From Candidatus Poribacteria bacterium (GTDB taxonomy: Bacteria > Poribacteria > WGA-4E > WGA-3G), in assembly GCA_026702755.1 (NCBI GenBank), contig JAPPBX010000068.1, forward strand, positions 1 to 64,000: a stretch of DNA of 64,000 nt, written 5' to 3'. Below the pieces are notes generated by a model, which was not told the origin of the DNA, did not search any database, and saw only the letters and a list, made by a program, of their open reading frames with translations. The position numbers were made by a program, and so were the translations under genes. This document shows, in pieces, positions 52,021-54,746 of the stretch (its first letter is position 1; every line of letters starts with the position of its first letter).

Positions 52021-52869
52021 TTAGTCGCGTGCGATGGGTGCTCCGACAAGATTACCCCATTCTGTCCAGCTGCCGTCGTAGTTGCGGACCTTCTCATAAC
52101 CGAGTAGATACTTCAGCACAAACCATGTATGCGATGAACGTTCGCCGATACGGCAATAAGCGATTGTTTCTTTACTATCGTCAACACCTTCACCACCGTA
52201 GATGGCTTGCAGTTCGTCGTGAGACTTAAAGGTGCCATCCTCAGCCACCGCTGTCGCCCACGGGATATTCGCGGCACCTGGAATATGGCCGCCACGTTGT
52301 GCAGTTTCGCTCATACCGGGCGGAGCAATGACTTCGCCGATGAATTCAGCAGGTGAACGAACATCAACAAGGTTAACAGTACCTTGCCCGAGTGTGTCTC
52401 GAACGTTACCCGCTGTGGCGCGAACGTTGTCATCAGGAAATTTCGCTTGGTATCCAGTACTGGAATGATCTGGCACATCGGTGACAAGTGCCCTACCTTC
52501 ATCAATCCATTTTTGGCGACCACCGTTCATCACTTTCAGCAGACTTTCATCGTGCCCGTAATAGCGGAATTGCCACAAGGCATAAGTTGCGAACCAGTTG
52601 TTATTGTCGCCATAGAAGATTACTGTCGTATCGGTGGCGATACCACTATCATTACAAAGTGCCTCAAACTGATCTTTCGTGAGAATATCGCGTCGCACTT
52701 GGTCGCACAATTGCGTTTCCCAATTTAAGCCGACTGCGCCAGCGATATGTCCTTCAGCATAAGCCGAGGTATCAACATCAACTTCAAGCAGTCGGATACC
52801 AGCATCACCACCGTGTGCAGCCACCCATTCTGTACTCACCAAAACATCAGGATTTGCGTAATCAGCCAT
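52021..52869 (-). CDS. sseA: Thiosulfate/3-mercaptopyruvate sulfurtransferase (two-domain rhodanese)
   Basis: 282 residues from the ATG at 52869 (MADYANPDVLVSTEWV), with AAGGAGG some 14 bases upstream; the longer frame to 52974 has no family match. Two rhodanese domains: about 8-125 (inactive; GLNWETQLCDQVRRDI) and 155-282, with active-site Cys in IAYCRIGERSSHTW. CRxGxRS-type loops prefer thiosulfate; CG[S/T]GVT loops prefer mercaptopyruvate, so thiosulfate is favoured. It moves sulfane sulfur to cyanide or thiols. No export signal. Confidence 0.93.
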   Translation of the reverse strand: MADYANPDVLVSTEWVAAHGGDAGIRLLEVDVDTSAYAEGHIAGAVGLNWETQLCDQVRRDILTKDQFEALCNDSGIATDTTVIFYGDNNNWFATYALWQFRYYGHDESLLKVMNGGRQKWIDEGRALVTDVPDHSSTGYQAKFPDDNVRATAGNVRDTLGQGTVNLVDVRSPAEFIGEVIAPPGMSETAQRGGHIPGAANIPWATAVAEDGTFKSHDELQAIYGGEGVDDSKETIAYCRIGERSSHTWFVLKYLLGYEKVRNYDGSWTEWGNLVGAPIARD

Positions 52870-53100
52870 TTCTGTTTTCAAGCCTCCTTGTTCTGTCTTT
52901 GCTAAGATTCTCTTAAATATAACAGCCTTGCGAGATGCGCCCTCGTAGAGCGTCTCGCTGCTTATATTATACATTTCTAAGTGCCGTTTGTCAAATAGAA
53001 ATGCGCTTCTGCTATTATCTTGTCCATTTTTAGGGGATTTGTCAAGTTTTTTCTGGTTAGAGAGCGTGCGTCAGTCTACATCCTGCGTGTCGCTGAACTG

Positions 53101-53171: not shown

Positions 53172-53879
53172 CTACAACCGATTTGCAGCAGCGGGTGCCT
53201 TTTTCGGGACGTTTTCCATCCCTTCACCGGCGAGAGCGTCTGCGGGGATATAGTTGCTATAGTCCGAGATACTCCCATGTGTTACCGCATAGATGACAAT
53301 GTTAATGAGTTGCCGTGCGGCAGCCGGTGCAAATTCCTCTAAAATCTTATTCCGGTCCTGATAGTGACCGAAGAAAGGTTTCTGCACTGCCCCATCCATC
53401 ACGTGTATCATTGCCTCTGTATCAACGAGAACAGCGAGCCTGTCGTCGATGAAAACGCCCTGTAACTGCCCGTAGGGACCGTGATGGAGAATGGTACTCC
53501 CCATTTTCCGAACAGGAAATCGGAGGGGTCCGTTCAACTCATAGTAAGTGTTGTAAATCTCGTGATCCTGAGGGATCGTGGTGAGGTGGTATTCAGGAAG
53601 AATTTGACGCAGGACGCGAAGCGCGGGTTGCATTGCCAATTCCGTGTTCCCGTGCGTGGGCATATAGATAAACCCACCGCGATTGATAATATATTCGCGA
53701 ATCCGTTGTGCTTCCCGATCGGTATAACCGAAGGAAGGACGACTCCCTTTCGTTTGCCAGATAGCACTACCACGCAACAATCCATTTTCGAGCTTTCCGC
53801 CAGAAGTGGAAATCGGTTCCATAAAGATAATCGGTGATTCAAAGAACGCCGCGTCCGTGATTTGGACTGCGTCAACCAT
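53172..53879 (-). CDS. DUF4159 domain protein, C-terminal part downstream of an in-frame TGA
   Basis: 235 residues from the ATG at 53879, but the same frame is open 29 codons further, to 53966 (GSGIGHLRFGAGLPYLVKS, then LNTETGIQTQ), which meets the TGA ending the upstream gene. DUF4159 domains normally begin with such a stretch. They resemble glutamine amidotransferase-like flavodoxin folds: PIIFMEP, IREYIINRGGFIYM, HEIYNTYYEL, VQKPFFGHY. No convincing ribosome binding site precedes 53879. So this is most likely the second half of one gene split by a stop. It could be translated separately, read through, or be dead. Confidence 0.75.
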   Translation of the reverse strand: MVDAVQITDAAFFESPIIFMEPISTSGGKLENGLLRGSAIWQTKGSRPSFGYTDREAQRIREYIINRGGFIYMPTHGNTELAMQPALRVLRQILPEYHLTTIPQDHEIYNTYYELNGPLRFPVRKMGSTILHHGPYGQLQGVFIDDRLAVLVDTEAMIHVMDGAVQKPFFGHYQDRNKILEEFAPAAARQLINIVIYAVTHGSISDYSNYIPADALAGEGMENVPKKAPAAANRL

Positions 53880-53966
53880 TTGGGTTTGGATACCTGTTTC
53901 TGTATTCAGCGACTTGACTAAATAGGGCAGACCTGCCCCGAATCGGAGATGTCCGATGCCGCTGCC

Positions 53967-54746
53967 TCAGAAATCGAGGTTCGGATGCAACGGATCATCA
54001 AGGCGGACGAGATGGAGTCTTCCAATAATCTCCTTGCCGCGTCCTTGAATAATAGCACCTGGACTTCCCTTCGGAAGCTGTGGTACACCGTTACCGAGAA
54101 CCATGCTCTGCTCTACATCTGACAACGAGGCATTAATATTCGCAGCACCCGCACCCTCCACGAGTGTGTTTAACCTACCATTGCCTTGTGTCCGTGCTTG
54201 CCCAAGACCGGATCCTGAACCGAAAGCACCGCGCCCAGTGCCGCTACCTAAACCGTCTCCGACACCGGCACTCAGACCATCCGTAATTCCGCCGCTTGAC
54301 AAGCCCGCTGTCGGTAGTGCGTCTGATGTTGTCGGCAGTACTGCGGCAGTTGACAGCGACTGTTCAGTATGTTGGAGCACAGGAGACGTGCTGGGAACTT
54401 TGATTTGCTGTCCCCTGGGTGCGGCTGGTGCGCCAGCCGTTAGTGACGCCACAGGCACTGCAGTTGCCGACGACCTCGCTGCTCGTGCGAGTGTTGTGCG
54501 ACGCGATGTTGTCTCCGTTTGTGGAACGACTCTCAAATCTGGAATAGGGGTTGCTACAACCGCTGGCTTAGCGATGACATCTCTTTTAGCCGCTTGTGGC
54601 GGTGTAACAATGAAAAAACTCACATCAATGGCATCTTGTGCCTTCAATTGTTTAGATGAGATCGCTATGTACCCAATAACGACTGCAAAACAGGCGTGTA
54701 AAAGGAACGATACCATCCATACAAGAGGCATACGGCGCGATTTCAT
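53967..54746 (-). CDS. TonB-like membrane-anchored N-terminal part of the split DUF4159 protein
   Basis: 259 residues from the ATG at 54746, with AGGAGG 8 bases upstream; an earlier GTG overlaps the site. Residues about 8-33 are one membrane helix (VWMVSFLLHACFAVVIGYIA), followed by the Pro/Ala/Ser/Thr-rich, Gly-rich region of a TonB-like periplasmic spacer (to about 225). The last residues (LHLVRLDDPLHPNLDF) look like the first strand of the DUF4159 domain that continues after the TGA. A whole protein would be a membrane-tethered periplasmic DUF4159 protein. Its own C-terminus lacks a TonB domain. Confidence 0.75.
   Translation of the reverse strand: MKSRRMPLVWMVSFLLHACFAVVIGYIAISSKQLKAQDAIDVSFFIVTPPQAAKRDVIAKPAVVATPIPDLRVVPQTETTSRRTTLARAARSSATAVPVASLTAGAPAAPRGQQIKVPSTSPVLQHTEQSLSTAAVLPTTSDALPTAGLSSGGITDGLSAGVGDGLGSGTGRGAFGSGSGLGQARTQGNGRLNTLVEGAGAANINASLSDVEQSMVLGNGVPQLPKGSPGAIIQGRGKEIIGRLHLVRLDDPLHPNLDF

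Follow-up and report, generated by a model that had tools for sequence, protein, structure and literature searches.

We describe a gene from a Poribacteria genome that very probably encodes a new selenoprotein. It carries one in-frame UGA codon, which would be read as selenocysteine (Sec) through SelB and a SECIS hairpin (hairpin 2 below), and its product would be an anchored TonB-like/DUF4159 protein with a single Sec. The gene lies within a 64,000-nucleotide stretch of DNA, which is referred to here as the window. The in-frame TGA is almost certainly not a defect, and on sequence grounds it most likely encodes selenocysteine. We infer Sec insertion from four observations: the conservation of the TGA, its replacement by Cys in some relatives, the presence of Sec machinery in the genome and the conservation of the SECIS element.

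Gene and protein layout

As the first-pass annotation had reported, the minus-strand frame is interrupted by a single TGA and is otherwise free of stop codons from position 54746 to 53172 (table 1). The likely start is the ATG at 54746, because GGAGGT precedes it at 7 nt. Counted from this ATG, the putative Sec codon is codon 260 of 524, which corresponds to residue 263 of P0001 (start GTG 54755). The read-through product would begin with a hydrophobic membrane anchor and continue through a TonB-like linker of low complexity into a DUF4159 domain, whose match to PF13709 exceeds the Pfam gathering score of 25.9. The domain opens with a loop, D-I/F-U-G-S-G-x-G, that holds the Sec position.

Table 1. 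Features of the putative selenoprotein locus and of a second candidate family. Coordinates are those of the window unless a locus is named.
Feature	Position	Strand	Remarks
Putative selenoprotein gene	53172..54746	-	ATG 54746, TAA 53172-53174; 524 aa with Sec read through
UGA, most likely read as selenocysteine	53967..53969	-	TGA in 41 copies and Cys in 3, same column
Hairpin 1, ATCGGA-CATC-TCCGAT	53942..53957	-	+10 to +25 after UGA; 99% of cells paired in 34 distinct sequences
Hairpin 2, GGGCA-GGUC-UGCCC, predicted SECIS apical stem-loop	53925..53938	-	100% of cells paired; loop 33 nt from UGA
DUF4159 (PF13709) match, core	53286..53735	-	Residues 341-490 of P0001; 65.3 bits
Intrinsic terminator-like stem-loop	53110..53137	-	Just 3′ of the gene; one found against 1.8 expected in shuffles, weak alone
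Rhodanese-like sulfurtransferase gene	52021-52974		Adjoins the putative selenoprotein gene
CUGSGK(S/T)LR candidate selenoproteins	L148:1357-3378 and L148:3527-5074 (G000:C102)	-	Neighbouring copies, each with an in-frame TGA and a SECIS-like hairpin

Conservation of the in-frame TGA

In a whole-genome search across the phylum, 41 of 85 genomes contained the subfamily. All named records that carry it are Poribacteria, seven members of the genus lack the gene, and the plasmid records searched gave no match. Alignment to full-length homologues, which the first-pass annotation had proposed as a means of finding the residue that stands at the TGA, places TGA at the identical codon in 41 full-length Poribacteria copies; these span several genera and range in identity from 97% to 48%. 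The same column contains Cys (TGC or TGT) in three further copies (genomes G066, G063 and G067) and TGG in none of the subfamily. On a maximum-likelihood tree, two separate U/C changes are required at the site. Two genomes are uninformative on this codon, namely G034, where an assembly gap covers the site, and G068, where the gene is cut by a contig end; the apparent split gene in G034 was rejected, as the sequence there consists of Ns. In G066 (locus L060, G066:C1:3451500-3460500), the TGA and Cys versions of the DUF4159 gene lie approximately 4 kb apart and resemble a natural Sec/Cys pair.

The first-pass annotation had preferred a nonsense mutation of a Trp codon (TGG to TGA), which would make the gene a recent pseudogene. 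Trp looked plausible because distant DUF4159 paralogues carry this residue (DWW) in the aligned column. However, these paralogues are set apart by a branch of 1.2 changes per column and have no GSGxGxxRFG segment, which makes their alignment in this region uncertain, and the closest relatives with a sense codon have Cys rather than Trp. The pseudogene reading is also at odds with the identical TGA in 41 copies from many species and several genera, and with dN/dS values well under 1 both upstream and downstream of the codon (approximately 0.1-0.2 in most pairs), which point to purifying selection on both halves and therefore to translation of the downstream half. A Trp pseudogene is thus extremely improbable. 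The chance of a sequencing or assembly error, another option raised at first pass, is vanishingly small: a single base separates the codon from a sense codon and the draft genome comprises 126 contigs, but the same TGA recurs in independent assemblies, single-contig chromosomes among them.

It is also highly improbable that the locus comprises two separate genes, or that a programmed stop yields a short TonB-like product alongside an independently started DUF4159 protein. An internal ATG is present at 53879 and would suit such an arrangement, but the Cys homologues are single genes whose frame passes uninterrupted through the site (open frames of 603-764 codons), conserved residues flank the TGA, and the stretch from the TGA to this ATG is among the best conserved. 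The unbroken frame of the Cys relatives shows that the two halves belong to one gene; at first pass, the sequence on both sides of the TGA had looked like one domain.

Selenocysteine machinery and genetic code

Readthrough or recoding had been listed at first pass as an alternative, to be checked by a search for selA, selB and selC, and all three components are present in the source genome: SelA (598 bits; cut-off 268), SelB (351 bits; cut-off 242) and tRNA-Sec (78 bits; cut-off 47), the last two approximately 0.1 kb apart on contig C86. SelB is found in 71 of 78 relatives and tRNA-Sec in 69 of 78; because the Sec machinery is near-universal in the phylum, the presence or absence of the gene gives no co-occurrence test.

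UGA read-through as Trp is known in other bacteria, and this precedent favours a near-cognate or suppressor tRNA that inserts Trp or some other residue at the UGA, or a changed code. We consider these readings very unlikely. Of the 34 window genes, 5 end normally in TGA, and the code is therefore standard; TGG is used 179 times in the same genes. Furthermore, the residue that replaces the TGA is Cys, and the UGA is set in a SECIS context in a genome that has Sec machinery.

Tandem hairpins downstream of the UGA

Hairpin 1, noticed at first pass about 10 bases past the TGA, is confirmed and starts 10 nt after it. By contrast, the outer GGCAG/CTGCC pairing that had been proposed around it fared poorly: pairing holds in 90.6% of cells, 11 of 34 distinct sequences break the middle pair, and a better hairpin competes with it. 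Hairpin 2, absent from the first-pass annotation, is the functionally telling one. The two hairpins together have standard pairs in 99.5% of pair cells over 34 distinct sequences, against 26-52% in slid controls. Variation at the pairs is one-sided only (A-U/G-U and G-C/G-U) and two-sided covariation was not found in the alignment, the element being too highly conserved to show it. The folding energy of the hairpin region is ordinary (z -0.82), and so the structural evidence is one of conservation, not stability. Conservation is equally apparent at the codon level: normalised synonymous codon entropy is 0.27 over codons +1 to +16 after the TGA compared with 0.65 elsewhere (P 8e-5), no other part of the gene is as low among 193 scorable codons, and Arg CGA, Gly GGG, Ala GCA, Gly GGT and Leu CTG after the TGA are identical in 41 of 41 copies. 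This low entropy is explained by the two tandem hairpins encoded there.

The rules for bacterial SECIS elements (bSECIS) specify an apical loop of 3-9 nt, a stem of 4-16 bp, a G in the first two loop positions, a distance of 16-37 nt from the UGA and an MFE <= -7.5 (PMC13188914). Hairpin 2 agrees with them, having a 4-nt GGUC loop, a 5-bp stem, a distance of 33 nt and a 60-nt MFE of -13.6 to -22.2. Rfam gave no meaningful match to the element. The pattern GCAGACCTGC...TCA has two matches in the source genome, the gene itself and a site within an ordinary open reading frame on contig C96; the pattern alone is uninformative, since a reversed-pattern control gave three matches.

The element resembles that of Escherichia coli fdhF, the sequence of which was taken directly from NC_000913. 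Both have an in-frame UGA with a coding-region hairpin directly 3′ of it, an identical ten-base core, GCAGGUCUGC, and a GGUC loop. They differ in the distance from UGA to loop, which is 18 nt in fdhF and 33 nt here, and in the additional conserved 16-nt hairpin that lies here between the UGA and the SECIS loop; the proteins are unrelated. Subtraction of hairpin 1 (16 nt) from the 33-nt distance leaves 17 nt, and hairpin 1 may therefore serve as a spacer that cuts the effective distance to about that of fdhF.

In the proposed mechanism, SelA would make Sec-tRNA-Sec, which SelB would carry. SelB would bind the predicted SECIS hairpin within the coding sequence while hairpin 1 takes up 16 nt of the intervening sequence, bringing the effective distance near that of fdhF, and the ribosome would decode the UGA as Sec. 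The product would carry an inner-membrane anchor, a flexible TonB-like linker, a DUF4159 domain and one Sec in a loop.

A second candidate family

A covariance model (R1) of the SECIS element was run blind on the source genome. It recovered the gene itself at 89.7 bits, followed by a match at 21 bits (E 0.07), a score that by itself is not significant; this match falls exactly on the in-frame TGA of a long open reading frame, ...DDESC-U-GSGKSLR.... The CUGSGK family to which it belongs is strongly expanded, with 17 matches in the source genome and as many as 19 in a related one; most of the matches listed carry one TGA (loci L149-L160 and L164), and TGA follows Cys in 12 of 12 members inspected. 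Both tandem copies (table 1) have the motif and a 6-bp hairpin, GAGGGC-AG(G/U)U-GUCCUC, whose loop lies 23 nt past the UGA, and in member L155 the stem has changed on both sides in a compensatory way (GAGAGC...GCUCUC). The family has no NCBIfam match and in Pfam only a sub-threshold match to SnoaL_2; by eye, its proteins are thioredoxin-like. The blind recovery of a TGA-bearing CUGSGK frame supports the reading of UGA as Sec in both families, and Poribacteria may have a large selenoproteome.

Structure, function and gene neighbourhood

The sole convincing structural match is the DUF4159 protein Hoch_4089 (PDB 4i66), found with the AlphaFold model (E 2e-10; TM 0.71 by target length) and by profile (E 2e-17). 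The model reached pLDDT 76 and pTM 0.81 when built with 52 sequences including paralogues, and pLDDT 51 with 22 sequences. Active-site inference is withheld because the Sec loop (residues 41-54) has a pLDDT below 50. Where the subfamily has the segment HPxxDIUGSGxGxxRFG, other Poribacterial DUF4159 paralogues have Trp-containing DWW or DWY and no Sec; the source genome holds TonB-like/DUF4159 paralogues of the DWW type at loci L002-L006 (contigs C122, C48 and C63 of G000), three of them in tandem on C48. U is the sole invariant Cys/Sec position of the C-terminal region, which leaves no CxxU-type motif. Such a lone Sec suggests nucleophilic or peroxidatic (redox) chemistry, or metal or cofactor ligation, any one of which is rather unlikely when taken singly. 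Given the N-terminal membrane anchor, the Sec would probably be periplasmic.

A rhodanese-like sulfurtransferase gene follows in 25 of 37 related loci, and past it lie PTPS, GTP cyclohydrolase-like and SDR genes. We claim no functional link to these neighbours, because a terminator-like element intervenes and the neighbours differ in another Poribacterial family. At 52966-52994, a perfect sigma-70 consensus, TTGACA-17-TATAAT, overlaps the annotated start of the rhodanese-like reading frame.

Novelty and implications

None of the NCBIfam 20.0 selenoprotein models matches the protein, the UGSC family included, and neither PF13709 nor DUF4159 appears in the main text of a 2026 review of selenoproteins (PMC13188914). 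A literature search, directed mostly at papers outside subscription, found none on DUF4159 and none that links Poribacteria with selenoproteins; the groundwater MAG survey of Deng et al. (2026), to which that review refers, could list the family as one of its unvalidated candidates. Sec/Cys pairs, a bSECIS and Sec machinery are features shared with catalogued prokaryotic selenoprotein families (PMC13188914; NCBIfam 20.0). We regard this as a new selenoprotein family of known kind, with a SECIS layout that is possibly new. The fuller picture, in which a two-hairpin SECIS with a spacer hairpin occurs in a new lone-Sec DUF4159 protein, and Poribacteria have many unrecognised selenoproteins, among them the multi-copy CUGSGK family, is put forward tentatively, as somewhat less than an even prospect.

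If read as proposed, the gene would add a DUF4159 protein to the selenoproteome, one with a lone Sec and no conserved partner Cys. The two-hairpin element poses the question of whether SelB needs a spatial or a linear distance between the UGA and the SECIS loop. For Poribacteria, the use of Sec would mean that selenoprotein genes appear split or truncated in standard annotation.
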